A DNA stretch of 64,000 nt from Amorphus orientalis (GTDB taxonomy: Bacteria; Pseudomonadota; Alphaproteobacteria; Rhizobiales; Amorphaceae), in NCBI RefSeq assembly GCF_030814015.1, contig NZ_JAUSUL010000004.1, positions 1-64,000 of the forward strand. The letters run 5' to 3'. The notes under the pieces were generated by a model. It did not search any database and was not told where the DNA came from. It was given only the letters and a program-made list of their open reading frames with translations. This document shows, piece after piece, positions 22,458-28,756 of the stretch. Every line of letters begins with the position of its first letter. The first letter of the stretch is position 1. Position numbers and translations under genes: made by a program.

Positions 22458-23150
22458 TCAGAAGTAGTAGCTGACGCCGCCGCGCACGACGTTGGTGCGG
22501 GCTTCGACCGCCAGGTCGCCCACCGTCGGACCGAGCGCGTAAAGCTCGTTGGCGTAGCTCGTGTAGAGATATTCCGCCCGAACGGTCAGATTCTGGGTGA
22601 CCGCAGCCTCGACGCCGCCGCCCACGGTCCAGCCGGTGTGGGTGTTGGTGTCGGAATAGCCCGGCGTCGCGGCGCGGAACTTCGCCAGCGCAAGACCGCC
22701 GGTCGCATAGGCCTGGACGTCGGCCACGCCCGGCATGTTCACGAACTGGCCGAAAGCCAGGCCGAACCGGCCGCGTGCGGAGGCCGTCCAGTCCATCTGG
22801 GCGTTGACCGGGCTGGTCCCGTAGACGCGGGTCTCGTCATAGGTCGAGCCGTCGAAATCGCCCTCGATGCCGACGATGAACATCGGCGCCAGCTCGGCCG
22901 ACACGCCGACATGGGCACCGCCGATGAAGGCGTTCTCGTAGATCGACTTCTGGCCGACGATGCCGGGATCCACCGAGCCGGCAACGACACCGGCGTGTCC
23001 GCCGGCATAGAAACCGCTCCAGTTGAACCGGGCCGGTTCCGGCAGCGGCACCGGCTCTTCGAACACGATGTCGGGAAGGTCGGCGGCGAAAGCGGGAGTG
23101 GTCAGCATCGCGGCGAGGACCGCTGCCGACGCAAGGCGTGAAGGACTCAT
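22458..23150 (-). CDS. Outer-membrane beta-barrel protein (Omp25/Omp31-like)
   Basis: The 230-residue protein starts with a signal peptide (MSPSRLASAAVLAAMLTTPAFA) and ADLPD. NWSGFYAGGHAG then opens an eight-stranded barrel, and the protein ends in the aromatic VRGGVSYYF expected for outer-membrane insertion. Internal landmarks are HTGWTVGGGVEAAVTQNLTVRAEYLYT. Such proteins are abundant rhizobial surface proteins. ATG 23150 follows AAGGGTG. The neighbouring gene is a paralogue in the same orientation; an AT-rich upstream stretch with several TTAA motifs probably holds the promoter. Confidence 0.88.
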   Translation of the reverse strand: MSPSRLASAAVLAAMLTTPAFAADLPDIVFEEPVPLPEPARFNWSGFYAGGHAGVVAGSVDPGIVGQKSIYENAFIGGAHVGVSAELAPMFIVGIEGDFDGSTYDETRVYGTSPVNAQMDWTASARGRFGLAFGQFVNMPGVADVQAYATGGLALAKFRAATPGYSDTNTHTGWTVGGGVEAAVTQNLTVRAEYLYTSYANELYALGPTVGDLAVEARTNVVRGGVSYYF

Positions 23151-23283
23151 ACTGATACACCCTTGATCGTAGTTGCTCCCCTCCCGGCGAGAGACCCCGA
23201 AAACCAAGAAAACCACTTGATATCCGACTCGATACTCACCGCGAGGCCAAGGATGTTTTCCCATAAAGTCTTAAAGAATACGT

Positions 23284-23415: not shown

Positions 23416-24084
23416 TCAGAACTTGTAGGAAATACCGGCGCGGACGACGTTGGAGGACACGTCGATGTTGCTGGTCGTTCCGCCGAAGTTGTAGTCCTGG
23501 CTGCCGTAGTCGGCATAGAGGTACTCGACGCGGGCGGTCACGTTCGGGGTGATCATGCCTTCGAGACCGGCACCGACGGTCCAGCCGGTGTGGGTGTTGG
23601 ACTCCGAGAAGCCGGCGTTGCTCACGTCGACGTCGGCGAACGCCACACCACCCGTGCCGTAGGCCAGGAAGCGGTCGAACGCGAAACCGGCACGACCGCG
23701 GATGCTCGACGTCCAGTTGATGTTCGCGTTGCCGGTCGTGGAGCCCGGGGTGAACGTGCCGTCCTTGTCGAACGAGGTTCCGTCGACGTCACCTTCGATA
23801 CCGACCAGGAACTGCGGCGTCACCATGTAGTTGGCGCCGGCGTGGAAACCGCCGGTGAAGGCGCTGCCGTCGGCACCGCTGACACCGCTGAAGTCGGGAT
23901 CGAAATCGCCACCGAGCCAGCCGGCGTGGAGACCGAGATAGATGCCGGTCCAGTCGTAGATCTGGACGGGCGCGGCCTGAACGGGCGCGCTGTAGGTTTC
24001 CTGGGGAAGATCGGCTGCCAGGGCCGGTGCGGCTGCCAGGCAGAGACCGGCACCCGCGATCGCAAATCGACGCATAACCATCAT
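23416..24084 (-). CDS. Outer-membrane beta-barrel protein (Omp25/Omp31-like), paralogue
   Basis: The 222-residue protein has a signal peptide (RRFAIAGAGLCLAAAPALA) and then ADLPQETYSAPVQAAPVQIYDWTGIYLGLHAGW. It has an eight-stranded barrel pattern and ends VVRAGISYKF. HTGWTVGAGLEGMITPNVTARVEYLYADYG closely parallels the adjacent paralogue, suggesting tandem duplication. ATG 24084 is preferred to the GTG at 24093 because AAGGTGA lies five bases upstream. A strong terminator follows. Confidence 0.9.
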   Translation of the reverse strand: MMVMRRFAIAGAGLCLAAAPALAADLPQETYSAPVQAAPVQIYDWTGIYLGLHAGWLGGDFDPDFSGVSGADGSAFTGGFHAGANYMVTPQFLVGIEGDVDGTSFDKDGTFTPGSTTGNANINWTSSIRGRAGFAFDRFLAYGTGGVAFADVDVSNAGFSESNTHTGWTVGAGLEGMITPNVTARVEYLYADYGSQDYNFGGTTSNIDVSSNVVRAGISYKF

Positions 24085-24449
24085 GTTCGTCACCTTACTA
24101 ATACAGGAACGGGGCGCGTTGATGCCAAACCCCGGCCGGACCCTTTCTCAAAACGGGCTGTCGGCTTGCGTGCTAACTCAACGCCGCATTCGGGCATTCG
24201 TTTCGCAATCTGGTGACGATTTCGCGGCGGAGAAGAAGCGGGGGTGAGGCAGAGTCAACAAAGGGTTAGCAATCCGACCCGGCCGGACCGGTCCGCCGGT
24301 CCGTCGACGTCGGCGCAAGGCCGGCACCGGGGAAGATTCGGCAACGACAAGCAGCGCTTCACAGCCGATCCGCCTCGATGTCACGGTCCGCCCGCGAGGA
24401 AACGGAATTTCGTCCGATGAACAGAGCGGGCCCTATTCGGCCCCGATGC
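24085..24449. other. Intergenic region between porin and kai operon
   Basis: About 365 bases lie between the start of the second porin and the end of the LOV-GGDEF-EAL gene. No gene, hairpin terminator or clear promoter was recognised; the reading frames crossing it look like random translation. Confidence 0.4.
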
Positions 24450-26750
24450 TCAGTTCGACCCACATGCGCTCCAGGAGACCTGCTCCGCGTTGCACAGCTG
24501 AAGGAACTCTTCCTGTGGCAGCGGGCGGGAAAACAGAAAACCCTGGCCGAGGGGGCAGCCCATGTCCCGCAGAATCTCCACCTGCTCTTCCGTCTCGACG
24601 CCTTCGGCCACGACGGCGCAGCCGAGTTCTCCGGCAAGGTCGATGCACAGTTGCACGATCTTGGCGCTGTAGCGCTCGGAGCCGAGTTTCTGCACGAAGC
24701 TCTTGTCGATCTTCAGTTCGTGAACCGAATAGTTGTGCAGATAGCTGAGCGAGGAGTAGCCGGTGCCGAAATCGTCGATCGCGATGCGGAAGCCGGCATT
24801 GCGGATCTCGTCGAGCTGCCGGACCAGCTTGGCCTCGTCGGTAAGCACCGATTCGGTCAGTTCGACCAGGAGCTGGGACGGGCTGATGCCGTTGCGGTCC
24901 ACGGCGGCCAGGAGCTGGCTCAGCACCGGCGTCGTCGCGAACTGGGCGCCCGACACGTTCACCGCCACCGGGATCGCCCGGCCGGTCTCCCGGGCGAGCT
25001 GCGCGGCGAACCGGGCAGTCGTTTCGATGCCCCACTCCCCCAACGCCCCGATCAGCCCCGATTCCTCGGCCAGCGGAATGAACACGGCCGGCGACTGGGG
25101 GCCGTAGGTCGGATGCGTCCAGCGGATCAGCGCCTCCACCTGAACGATCCGCCGGGTGTTGAGATCGACGAGCGGCTGAAAGGCGAAACTGAGTTCGTCG
25201 CGGGCGATCGCCTCGCGCATCCCCGCGACGAGACGCGCCCTCTGGTGGGTCGCCTGGGCGATCGCCGGCTCGAACCGGCAGACCGTTCCGCCATTGCTCC
25301 GGCGCGCCTCGGCCAGCGCGATCTCCGCGTTGCGCAGGAGAGTGGGCCCTTCCACGCCATGGACCGTCGAGGCCCAACCGATGGAGAAGGGTAGCGTCAT
25401 CTGCCCGCCGGCCACGGAATAGGGTTCGCCCATCAGCGCCTTGAGCTGCGAGACTCCGCGCTCGCAGTCCGCGAGTGTCGGCGCGGCGAACGCCATCGCG
25501 AACTCGTTGCCGCCGGTACGGGCCGCAAATCCCGGGGGGTTCTCGCAGGAGTCCAGCCTGCGGGCGATCGCCATCAGCACATGATCGCCGACGTCCATGC
25601 CGTAGCTCTCGTTGAAGGCGCCCATGCCGCGCACGTTCAAAAGCGCGACGGCCACCACCTGCTCGCCCCGCTCCTGGACCAGCGGATCCAGCACGCGCTC
25701 GAAGCCGAGCCGATTGCGGATGCCCGTCAGTCCATCGTGACCGGCGGCCTCGCGCATGCGTTCGAGGCGCTCCACGGCCTCCGTGATGTCGTGCATGGTT
25801 CCGGCATAGTGCGTGACGCGCCCGGTCTCGCTGAAGATCGGCGAGAGGGAAACGTCGTTCCAGAACATCTCGCCGGACTTGCGATAGTTGCGGAGCGTCA
25901 CGCTGACCGGACGGCCGGCCGCGACCGCTTCGCGGAGCTGATCGACCTCCGACTGGTCCACATCGTCCGCCTGAAGAAAACGGCAGTTCTGTCCGAGCAC
26001 CTCCGACAGCGTATAGCCGGTCAGACGCAGAAAGCCGCCGTTGGCGTAGGCGATCGGCTGATCGTCGCCGAGCATGTCCACGATCACGACGCCCTCGCGC
26101 ACGGAGTTGAGCGCCTGGTCGCGCAGGCTCAGGCGGAACCCGGCGCCCTCTCCGTCACCGGGCAAGGCAGTTCCGAAAGCCCGGCTCGTGATATCGGTAT
26201 GGAGGCCGTGAATGAAACGCGCGCGGCCCGCCTCGTCCCGCTCGACGAAGCCGCGACATTCCACGAGCAGAGGCTCGTCGCCGTCGCTCCTGAGACGGTA
26301 GATATTCCGGCAATAGAGCTCGCCGCTGCCGCTCATGGCCCGGACCGCCGCCCGGACCCGGGGCAGGTCGTCGGGGTGAACCATCTCCGAAATCCCGAGC
26401 CAGCGCGCGGCGCCGCCGGGATGCGAACGCCCCGCCACCAGGTCGCGTTCGAAGTCTTCGACGTCGACGGTCTCGCGAGCGGTGTCGAGCGTCCACGACC
26501 AGACCCGCACCGCATCGCTTTTGGCCACCAGGTTCGTGCTGGCGCCGGACGCACCGGCGCGTCCCGCGACGAGAAACAGCGCGCCCGCCAGAAACACGTC
26601 GCAGACAAGGCAGAGCCCCAGCGCCAGACGCGCGGCCGACAGATCGTCAGCCGTCCCCGAAAGCGCCCAGACGAGACCGCCGGCTATGTTGAGTGCCACG
26701 AGGCTCGTGGCGATAAGGACGACCGCCTGCGCCCGGCCTGCCCTCCTCAT
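24450..26750 (-). CDS. Membrane LOV-GGDEF-EAL protein, predicted light-regulated c-di-GMP phosphodiesterase
   Basis: The 766-residue protein has two N-terminal membrane helices (about residues 9-34 and 43-67), a PAS_3 domain (about 80-180), a LOV-type PAS (about 195-320), GGDEF (about 330-485) and EAL (about 505-750). The LOV core reads GQNCRFLQ, with Cys256 at the flavin-adduct position, and NYRKSGEMFWND keeps both flavin-contacting Asn. The usual end-strand Gln is Met319. GGDEF is degenerate: G-G-N-E-F (413-417). EAL is intact: VEALIRW (E539), IDDFGTGYSSLSYL, KIDKSFV, AEGVETEEQ. It should hydrolyse c-di-GMP. Its ATG overlaps the kaiB stop (ATGA). Confidence 0.88.
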   Translation of the reverse strand: MRRAGRAQAVVLIATSLVALNIAGGLVWALSGTADDLSAARLALGLCLVCDVFLAGALFLVAGRAGASGASTNLVAKSDAVRVWSWTLDTARETVDVEDFERDLVAGRSHPGGAARWLGISEMVHPDDLPRVRAAVRAMSGSGELYCRNIYRLRSDGDEPLLVECRGFVERDEAGRARFIHGLHTDITSRAFGTALPGDGEGAGFRLSLRDQALNSVREGVVIVDMLGDDQPIAYANGGFLRLTGYTLSEVLGQNCRFLQADDVDQSEVDQLREAVAAGRPVSVTLRNYRKSGEMFWNDVSLSPIFSETGRVTHYAGTMHDITEAVERLERMREAAGHDGLTGIRNRLGFERVLDPLVQERGEQVVAVALLNVRGMGAFNESYGMDVGDHVLMAIARRLDSCENPPGFAARTGGNEFAMAFAAPTLADCERGVSQLKALMGEPYSVAGGQMTLPFSIGWASTVHGVEGPTLLRNAEIALAEARRSNGGTVCRFEPAIAQATHQRARLVAGMREAIARDELSFAFQPLVDLNTRRIVQVEALIRWTHPTYGPQSPAVFIPLAEESGLIGALGEWGIETTARFAAQLARETGRAIPVAVNVSGAQFATTPVLSQLLAAVDRNGISPSQLLVELTESVLTDEAKLVRQLDEIRNAGFRIAIDDFGTGYSSLSYLHNYSVHELKIDKSFVQKLGSERYSAKIVQLCIDLAGELGCAVVAEGVETEEQVEILRDMGCPLGQGFLFSRPLPQEEFLQLCNAEQVSWSACGSN

Positions 26751-27097
26751 CGCAATCGGTCCAGGCCATCGGCGTTCTCGCCCGATGCCACGTGGCCCGC
26801 CCCCTCCAGGAAACTCGTAAGGAAGGACCGCAGCGCGTCCCGGTCGACGAGATCCCCGATCAGCCAGAGCCTTCGGTCGCCGTCTGCAGCCAGCAGCGAC
26901 GGCGTCGCGATCGCGCCGGCCGCCACCGCGGTCTTGGCGTCTTCGAACACGTCGACCACCCGCGTTTCGATCGCGATGTTCTGCTCCTGAAGCGTCTCGG
27001 CGAGCACCTCCCGCGCCCGGAGGCTGGTCGGATGACTGCCGGCCACGAACAGATAGAGGACGGCCGGGCTCTCGGCGGCAGGAGGGTTGATGCTCAT
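26747..27097 (-). CDS. kaiB: KaiB-family protein
   Basis: The 116-residue protein has the thioredoxin-like KaiB fold: VLYLFVAGSHPTSLRAREVLAETLQ, IETRVVDVFEDAKTAVAAGAIATPSLL and RRLWLIGDLVDRDALRSFL. In cyanobacteria KaiB switches fold and binds the CI ring of phosphorylated KaiC, resetting the cycle. Here it lies between kaiC and the LOV-EAL gene, overlapping each by 4 nt. The ~18-residue C-terminal tail is longer than in cyanobacterial KaiB. No kaiA is present. Confidence 0.92.
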   Translation of the reverse strand: MSINPPAAESPAVLYLFVAGSHPTSLRAREVLAETLQEQNIAIETRVVDVFEDAKTAVAAGAIATPSLLAADGDRRLWLIGDLVDRDALRSFLTSFLEGAGHVASGENADGLDRLR

Positions 27098-28563
27098 GAC
27101 GGACGCTCCGACCCGGGGACGGGACCAGCCGGGGCGCCCTCGTGGACCAGACCCTCGGGAAGATCGGCCAGGGACAGGCCGCCGTCCGAAAGGACGAGTT
27201 CCCTGAGCTGATGCGAGTGAGCCGTGCCACGGGATTTCACCACCCGCAGCGTACGTACGTTCCTGCTGCCATGGCGCGCGTAGCCGAGTTCAAGCCAGGT
27301 GTCGGCCATCGTCGATATGCCGCTGATCGTCTGACCGGCCTGAGGGGACGAGGGTTCGATCAGCGAGGTTGTCAGAAGCGTCGCACCCGTCGACCGGATC
27401 AGATTGAACAGCTGCTCGATGATGCGTTCGGCTTCCGGGTCGTCGCGGCGCTTGTTGAGCGCGGAGATCGGATCGATGACGATCCGATCCGGATTGATCC
27501 GCTCCAGCGCGTCGAGCACCGCCAGATAGGTTTCCTCCGGCTCGGTCAGCCGGGAGAAGAGGCTCAGCCCCCCGAATGCCGGATCTTCGGCATAGGGGCC
27601 GAAATCCATGCCGACGGAGCGGACGTTGTCGAGGGTCTGCTCCACGGTCTCCTCGAAGGAGATCAGAAGTCCGGCCTCCCCCCGACGGAGCCCGTCGAGG
27701 AGAAAGGAGGCACCCAGCGTCGTCTTCGCCGTGCCCGGCGCTCCGGACACAAGAATGGTCGTTCCGCGCCGGAACCCGTTTCCGAGCATTGCATCGAGAT
27801 CTGCCACTCCCGACGACAGCCGCGCGTCGCCGCCGCGGGTGTCGGGCAGCGCCGGAAGCCGAGGGACGACCCCGATCCCACGGGGACCGATCACGAACGG
27901 GTGGCGCCCCGCCTTGGCGTTCGCGCCCCGGTATTTCGTGATACAAACCACCCGCCGCGATCCGGTCGGCCCGTGTCCCGCCTGAAGGTGAATGACGCAC
28001 TGGGCCGCATACTGCATGAATTCGATGCGCCGCATGCCGGAGGCCGACGACGCCTTGGCGGTCACGAGACTGACCAGATGGCGCTCTTCCAGCCAGTCGA
28101 GGACATGCAGCATCTGGGCCTTGCGCTCGACGCCCGACGGCAGAAGTTCGAGAATCTGATCGATGCCGTCCAGCACGACGACGCTGATTGCGTGCTCTTC
28201 GATATGGGCCCCGATCATGGCCAGGAGCCCGTCGAGGCTGAATCCGCCCGTGGCCACGGCGCGGGTCGCCTGTCTCGTGTTCAGAAAATGGATCCCGGCG
28301 GCCGCAAAATCATCGGGAGCCCAGTCGAAGGACTGCAGGGTCTGGACGATGGACGGCGGCGTTTCCTCGAAGGCCACGAACAGGACATGCTCGTCCTGCA
28401 GGGCCCGGTGAACCGCGATCTGGCTGGCGAGGACGGTTTTCCCCGCGCCGGGACCGCCGACGAGCACCGTCGTACCGCCCCGCGGCAGACCGCCGGCGAG
28501 AACGGCGTCCAGCCCGGCGATCCCGGTGGAGAGCTTGTCCGCTGCGTGCTGCACGGTCGACAT
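27094..28563 (-). CDS. kaiC: KaiC-family double-domain ATPase
   Basis: The 489-residue protein has two RecA-like domains. CI has Walker A GGPGAGKT (36-43) and catalytic Glu66-Glu67. CII has GAPGTAKT (274-281) and Glu304-Glu305. The CII autophosphorylation pair of KaiC is present as Ser417-Thr418 in G-I-S-T-M-A-D-T. The C-terminus is short and lacks an extended KaiA-binding tail. ATG 28563 gives the canonical start (LSTGIAGLDAVLAGGLPRG). The promoter region holds the inverted repeat CTCCG-TTAAT-CGGAG (28594-28608); TTGACT at 28667-28672 may be a weak -35. It is the first gene of the operon. Confidence 0.93.
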   Translation of the reverse strand: MSTVQHAADKLSTGIAGLDAVLAGGLPRGGTTVLVGGPGAGKTVLASQIAVHRALQDEHVLFVAFEETPPSIVQTLQSFDWAPDDFAAAGIHFLNTRQATRAVATGGFSLDGLLAMIGAHIEEHAISVVVLDGIDQILELLPSGVERKAQMLHVLDWLEERHLVSLVTAKASSASGMRRIEFMQYAAQCVIHLQAGHGPTGSRRVVCITKYRGANAKAGRHPFVIGPRGIGVVPRLPALPDTRGGDARLSSGVADLDAMLGNGFRRGTTILVSGAPGTAKTTLGASFLLDGLRRGEAGLLISFEETVEQTLDNVRSVGMDFGPYAEDPAFGGLSLFSRLTEPEETYLAVLDALERINPDRIVIDPISALNKRRDDPEAERIIEQLFNLIRSTGATLLTTSLIEPSSPQAGQTISGISTMADTWLELGYARHGSRNVRTLRVVKSRGTAHSHQLRELVLSDGGLSLADLPEGLVHEGAPAGPVPGSERPS

Positions 28564-28719: not shown

Positions 28720-28756
28720 CAGAAAACGGGGCCCGGCCGCGTCGGCGCGGCCGGGC
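28720..28756 (-). terminator. Intrinsic terminator after the rhodanese gene
   Basis: GCCCGGCCGCG (28731-28741) pairs with CGCGGCCGGGC (28746-28756) around TCGG. Read on the minus strand, the hairpin is followed by CCCGTTTTCT, so it ends the rhodanese transcript before the kai promoter. Confidence 0.75.

Follow-up and report, generated by a model that had tools for sequence, protein, structure and literature searches.

A kaiC-kaiB gene row with a LOV-GGDEF-EAL gene in Amorphus orientalis, and a KaiC subfamily recurrently encoded beside EAL proteins

Introduction

Almost all kaiC-kaiB clusters outside the cyanobacteria were reported in 2011 to be followed directly by a gene for a kinase or for a GGDEF/EAL protein, and the legend of Figure S6 in that paper lists a PAS-PAC-GGDEF-EAL neighbour (PMC3164672; statements on papers cited by PMC number refer to the parts of them that were available). 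A kaiC-B-PAS/HK operon, in which HK stands for histidine kinase, is described in Rhodopseudomonas palustris and Rhodobacter sphaeroides (PMC4794148). LOV sensors on GGDEF-EAL proteins are known from Synechococcus elongatus (SL2, mentioned in PMC13001216) and Mesorhizobium loti (PMC9098866), and the available text of these two papers reports neither protein beside kai genes. Here, we analyse the first 64,000 nucleotides of contig NZ_JAUSUL010000004.1 of Amorphus orientalis (assembly GCF_030814015.1, forward strand; hereafter the window), where kaiC, kaiB and a gene for a membrane protein with LOV, GGDEF and EAL domains, a predicted phosphodiesterase of cyclic di-GMP (c-di-GMP), lie in a row. 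Judged from sequence comparison, the KaiC subfamily of the window is repeatedly co-inherited with an EAL protein.

The window resembles the clusters of the 2011 paper in that a GGDEF/EAL protein is encoded beside kaiC or kaiB, which corrects an earlier note on this DNA that had taken a genetic coupling of Kai to c-di-GMP to be undescribed. What sets it apart is that the available text of PMC3164672 mentions no LOV domain, P-loop signature, co-inheritance test or EAL catalytic residues. With the operon of R. palustris and R. sphaeroides, the window shares the order of kaiC, kaiB and a PAS-bearing sensor, the lack of KaiA, and a two-domain KaiC with phosphorylation residues, but its third protein is a PAS-LOV-GGDEF-EAL protein and not a kinase. 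Its KaiC differs from that of R. sphaeroides in having PGTAKT in the CII domain, in lacking a long C-terminal tail, and in its length of 489 residues against the 568 of the solved R. sphaeroides chain. The M. loti protein likewise has a LOV domain on GGDEF-EAL with Met in place of the active-site Gln; its Gln-less LOV-GGDEF fragment is a blue-light-repressed cyclase (PMC9098866), whereas the GGDEF motif of the window protein is degenerate. A full-text literature search, outside which most subscription papers lay (including the one on the Legionella kai operon), found neither a kaiC with a LOV-EAL partner nor the KaiC subfamily of the window, and the available text of PMC6848086, PMC3899966, PMC10173096, PMC10359499 and PMC6627678 holds nothing on a kaiC with such a partner. 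GGDEF/EAL genes beside kaiBC are already known; in the literature searched we found no published account of the underlying pattern, namely one KaiC subfamily, its co-inheritance with EAL proteins and an intact EAL site.

Results

The features of the row, in window coordinates, are the following.

kaiC: 28563..27094, minus strand; two-domain KaiC ATPase/kinase, 489 residues
kaiB: 27097..26747, minus strand; divergent KaiB, 116 residues, predicted thioredoxin-like (fold-switched) KaiB fold
Third gene: 26750..24450, minus strand; membrane PAS-LOV-GGDEF(GGNEF)-EAL protein, 766 residues, predicted c-di-GMP phosphodiesterase
Predicted membrane anchor: 26550..26732, minus strand; two hydrophobic helices, residues 7-67 of the third protein
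LOV domain and exit helix: 25743..26123, minus strand; residues 210-336, GQNCRFLQ, YAGTMHDI with Met at the Gln place; helix 323-336
GGDEF domain: 25293..25742, minus strand; degenerate motif GGNEF
EAL domain: 24522..25217, minus strand; full catalytic residue set
Terminator-like hairpin: 28731..28756, minus strand; between the upstream rhodanese gene and kaiC, consensus match only

The earlier note had described three minus-strand genes with ATGA at both junctions, and both the coordinates and the junction sequences agree with it: GTCATGAGC at kaiC/kaiB and GCGATGAGG at kaiB/third gene, each a 4-base ATGA overlap. The overlaps suggest that the three genes may be translationally coupled, and it is to such coupling that they point, instead of the fixed stoichiometric linkage that had been proposed. 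The hairpin after the rhodanese gene suggests that kaiC probably starts its own transcript; the consensus scan behind it returned 5 terminator-like sites against 2.7 expected.

In A. coralli, the only other Amorphus genome searched, the gene order is identical, both ATGA overlaps recur and a rhodanese-like gene (judged by eye) precedes the row. The two species share 50% identity in KaiC, 56% in KaiB and 55% in the LOV-EAL protein. Absence of the three-gene order from all relatives, set beforehand as the outcome that would speak against a link, is therefore not what is found. The window genome also holds a second kaiBC pair on contig 1, at about 1130916-1135964 (L030:2917-7965), in which overlapping genes place a sensor-GGDEF-EAL gene (1057 residues) directly upstream of kaiC (540 residues) and kaiB (88 residues); the nearest relative of this EAL protein on the EAL tree is encoded in genome G591, likewise beside kaiBC. 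There are 14 EAL matches and two kaiBC pairs in the window genome, and both pairs adjoin an EAL gene, the chance of which is about 4e-5 (gene number, ~4,490, assumed from the size of the genome). A search for KaiA gave 0 matches in this genome, which is 97% complete, and detected the S. elongatus positive control, bearing out the earlier statement that the host is without KaiA.

A tree of 140 KaiCs was built with FastTree, leaving out KaiC pieces shorter than 430 residues (L078, L083, L096, L105, L107, L108, L115, L177, L178, L182, L185, L186 and L188). In this tree, 36 of the 37 EAL-linked KaiCs fall in one strongly supported clade of 68, which we refer to as the subfamily. All 68 rows have GT[AS]K (PGT[AS]K) in the CII P-loop, as against Gly before the Lys in 72/72 others, and 65/68 retain a Ser-Thr pair; in the CII acidic pair, the first Glu is often Asp, giving DE or DS. 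The named loci described below were partly fetched through the P-loop motif, and eight rows sampled through KaiB carry it too. The tree run warned that long branches meet in it, that of the window being one, and we are unsure of the placement of the window KaiC beside that of Rhodovibrio. For 10 further KaiCs among the 140, the neighbour detected is a GGDEF gene without EAL. Eight kaiB/kaiC clusters of another KaiC clade have a separate GGDEF gene as neighbour (L090, L097, L101, L104, L109, L112, L116 and L119).

Sampling through KaiB, which is unbiased with respect to EAL, gave matches in 40/397 genomes of the order, 19/385 of the class and 38/398 of the phylum, the window genome being counted in each of the three samples and some genomes recurring. 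From these samples 89 loci were examined, 7 of them without KaiC; seven weak KaiB matches (five class-sample genomes and two further sites of the phylum sample) were left out. An EAL gene is adjacent in 7/9 loci of the subfamily compared with 1/71 other KaiC rows (L100; Fisher 9e-8), where the seven are not independent, three being from Amorphus and two from Kaistia, and the count includes L083, added by hand, whose partial KaiC carries PGTAKT. Among the relatives in the order, the search for the three-gene order succeeded in A. coralli; elsewhere in this sample EAL adjoins kaiBC only in Kaistia G106 (2/2 clusters, alongside 3/3 in Amorphus). In the remaining 34 KaiC rows of this sample no EAL gene adjoins, and there is a histidine kinase neighbour in 17 and no detected signalling neighbour in 17; the kinases were detected with home-made profiles, and the latter rows may hide kinases of other families. 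In both kai clusters of Kaistia G106 (L045 and L046), a GGDEF-less EAL gene lies on the upstream side of kaiC, and a separate GGDEF gene is no more than about 3 kb away (with a GAF-like start by eye, and on the other strand in L045), an arrangement of phosphodiesterase and cyclase around kaiBC.

A single scan with the KaiC alignment yielded 71 named loci; it was seeded with the subfamily of the window, so no frequency can be derived from it. EAL adjoins kaiC or kaiB in 37 of the 71, or in 33/67 when four repeats of sampled genomes are set aside (these 33 include L145, with an EAL lacking the motifs, L178, a fragment, and L188, cut by a contig end), and the idea that the row is an oddity unique to Amorphus was rejected on this count. 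The hosts of the EAL-linked loci include Halomonas, Vreelandella, Marinobacter, Wenzhouxiangella, Aquisalimonas, Ectothiorhodospira, Arhodomonas, Nitrincola, Kineobactrum, Methylobacter, Rhodovibrio, Variovorax and Kaistia. In 28 of the 33 loci left once the repeats are removed, the EAL gene lies upstream of kaiC, the Amorphus order being instead kaiC, kaiB, EAL. A kinase is the neighbour in 26 of the remaining 34 named loci.

The EAL label changes 8 times on the KaiC tree (shuffled mean 32.9; 0/500 shuffles as low), and in a subclade of 21 gammaproteobacterial KaiCs a GGDEF-EAL gene is upstream in 21/21. The EAL tree mirrors this subclade, and KaiC and EAL distances correlate with r of 0.92 over 37 pairs, 0.92 over the 21 gammaproteobacterial pairs and 0.55 over the other 16, with 0/5000 permutations as high in each set, values that include the contribution from common descent of the host genomes. 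In both trees Kineobactrum branches within Halomonas, which would fit a joint transfer of the unit.

The window KaiC has the KaiC ATPase domain (PF06745) in two stretches (Pfam, 3.5e-78) and aligns with solved KaiCs across residues 7-481, while staying under the NCBIfam equivalog cut-offs (346 of 408 bits, 171 of 546 bits). It consists of two fused RecA-like domains with the P-loops GGPGAGKT (CI) and SGAPGTAKT (CII) and the acidic pair EE in CI and, unlike many subfamily rows, also in CII. The missing Gly before the CII P-loop Lys marks the subfamily and does not exclude the protein from KaiC. Its phosphorylation positions are the Ser/Thr pair S417-T418, and also T412; S417-T418 aligns with the two serines of R. 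sphaeroides KaiC that the title of a structure entry numbers S413/S414. The window KaiB matches PF07689 at 4.3e-6 and 26.8 bits, just below the 27-bit cut-off (27.1 bits in the genome search), and is far under the NCBIfam KaiB cut-offs (31.6 of 145 bits). Its model (predicted local distance difference test, pLDDT, 86) has the thioredoxin-like order strand-helix-strand-helix-strand-strand-helix. The structures that it matches best are fold-switched KaiB, Legionella KaiB and R. sphaeroides KaiB in complex with KaiC; SasA and thioredoxins come next. Family and fold together assign it to KaiB, and the protein is predicted to be in the KaiC-binding fold.

In the third protein, Pfam finds EAL (2.6e-69), PAS_9 (7.5e-26), GGDEF (3.5e-22) and PAS_3 in two stretches, and hydrophobic stretches span residues 7-31 and 36-67, in agreement with the two-helix membrane protein with LOV and EAL domains of the earlier note. 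The LOV-GGDEF-EAL order given there also holds, with the amendments that a second PAS-like domain before the LOV had been overlooked and that the GGDEF domain is degenerate. Both Amorphus proteins have GGNEF in place of the GG[DE]EF of diguanylate cyclases, which makes cyclase activity of the window protein doubtful. The EAL domain has E539, L541, N598, E630, D659, D660, K680, E716 and Q736, all of the positions sought, which comprise the EAL motif and the ligands of metal and c-di-GMP. The AlphaFold model has a confident LOV domain (about residues 210-322), the exit helix 323-336, and then GGDEF and EAL; residues before 210 are of lower confidence.

The LOV domain aligns with solved LOV domains and has the reactive-Cys motif GxNCRFLQ as GQNCRFLQ, by which it would be a blue-light receptor domain with predicted flavin binding. 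Where the solved LOVs aligned have the active-site Gln, the window protein has Met and that of A. coralli has Ala. A domain without this Gln could be a redox or structural PAS, and the unit a light-blind pairing of KaiC and phosphodiesterase. We think this quite improbable, since the residues GxNCRFLQ and LRNYRK..FWN are retained in both Amorphus species and several Gln-less LOV receptors do signal, among them the Mesorhizobium LOV-GGDEF with Met (PMC9098866). A genome of the same order without a KaiB match (G013; L012/L032) also has a LOV without Gln (YIGFVEDV).

Across the EAL partners, the listed catalytic positions are intact in 37/37 aligned proteins, an alignment that leaves out L145, the 38th partner, which lacks the motifs. 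Of the 37, 14 have a canonical GGDEF motif, 5 a nearly canonical and 13 a degenerate one, and 5 lack the domain; the sensor parts vary among PAS, HAMP, GAF and Cache. A LOV motif occurs in 4/38 kai-linked partners, namely the two Amorphus proteins and those of Halomonas salinarum and an Oleiphilaceae metagenome-assembled genome, the last two of which keep the Gln. LOV was accordingly rejected as a constant part of kai-linked units. With the EAL site constant and the sensors varying, the common factor would be c-di-GMP hydrolysis, and light looks like an interchangeable input, one option among several. The LOV motif flagged no adjacent kinase in the loci examined; kinases in seven loci that a first LOV profile had tagged were dropped, the Cys motif being missing in each.

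Downstream of the kai row, two adjacent minus-strand genes (window 22458-23264 and 23416-24093) resemble, by eye, genes for small outer-membrane beta-barrel proteins, and antisense reading frames suggest the same beta-barrel-like gene pair in A. coralli.

Discussion

A functional link between Kai and c-di-GMP is the best reading of these sequences, because the row is conserved in A. coralli, the host is without KaiA, and the recurrence of kaiBC with EAL is far beyond chance. We lean towards regarding the three genes as one signalling unit, in which a KaiA-less KaiC-KaiB switch or timer would have a c-di-GMP phosphodiesterase as its conserved partner. The earlier note had proposed a Kai-gated, light-tuned c-di-GMP output; the link to c-di-GMP stands in this form, and the light-tuned part does not extend to kai-linked units at large.

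In such a unit, KaiC hexamers would hydrolyse ATP and autophosphorylate at S417/T418, and KaiB would bind one KaiC state. This state, free KaiC or the KaiBC complex, would then act on the membrane EAL protein and alter its activity. Blue light might form a cysteine-flavin adduct in the LOV domain and, through helix 323-336, act on the same enzyme, such that c-di-GMP would be set by two inputs, the state of KaiC (energy or time) and light. Under one condition of light or energy, c-di-GMP would then probably fall, which would favour a motile or dispersed way of life. That KaiC touches the EAL protein directly, and in which direction light acts, are guesses.

Several observations weigh against a KaiC-KaiB switch with the phosphodiesterase as its conserved output. 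The altered CII P-loop (68/68) together with the altered CII acidic pair in most rows of the subfamily makes a normal phosphorylation cycle uncertain, and A. coralli KaiC has Ala as its second phosphorylation residue (GISA). A histidine kinase is instead the detected neighbour in 25/68 subfamily rows. The EAL partners do not form one clade: on the EAL tree the label changes 12 times (22.8 on average after shuffling; 0/500 as low; L188 is labelled 'not' there despite an EAL gene adjoining its kaiC), from which it follows that they were recruited or exchanged several times. The separate groups are the EAL-only proteins of Kaistia and Variovorax, the second cluster of the window genome with G591, and Amorphus, which lies close to the gammaproteobacterial proteins; the Amorphus pair has the unlinked LOV-GGDEF-EAL protein L012 beside it, so that partners have also been swapped.

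Three KaiB profiles found no KaiB/SasA-like KaiC-binding domain in any EAL partner reading frame. The want of this common docking domain would suit an account in which the genes are merely co-transcribed, having one promoter and one life-style programme (attachment, light exposure) in common but no mutual effect on activity, as would the variation of neighbour genes among KaiC clades, which may be a kinase, EAL, GGDEF or none. We consider this account unlikely, as the overlapping gene starts of two species, the mirroring of the trees and the apparent movement of the unit as a whole exceed the usual trace of shared regulation.

A last point of this kind is that c-di-GMP shifts the rhythm of S. 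elongatus, apparently without direct action on Kai proteins in vitro (PMC13001216). The shift itself would fit a reversed flow, in which the LOV-EAL protein is the input, and the state of KaiC depends on light and on local turnover of c-di-GMP or GTP; the R. sphaeroides kinase encoded with kaiBC has similarly been proposed to relay a redox signal to KaiBC (PMC5520375). The lack of a direct effect in vitro speaks against this direction, as does an EAL catalytic site kept in every aligned partner while the sensors vary, which fits an enzyme used for output, and we give the reversed flow a low probability.

Beyond the signalling unit towards which we lean, a bolder proposal is offered tentatively and with more doubt than conviction: that the KaiC subfamily with the non-canonical CII P-loop may be a direct controller of c-di-GMP hydrolysis, free of two-component relays, in which the state of KaiC/KaiB would gate the EAL enzyme by contact. 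In Amorphus, and separately in Halomonas salinarum and the Oleiphilaceae bacterium, the LOV domain would add blue light, making a light-set timer that writes into c-di-GMP.

Discussion of KaiBC outside the cyanobacteria usually centres on a histidine kinase as its partner. Co-inheritance of a KaiC clade with an EAL phosphodiesterase whose catalytic site is intact would give KaiBC a measurable output, c-di-GMP, through which timing or gating of the motile-to-sessile switch may be approached. Amorphus coralli DSM 19760, Halomonas, Marinobacter and Kaistia are hosts in which the question can be put, and the LOV versions would add a light handle.

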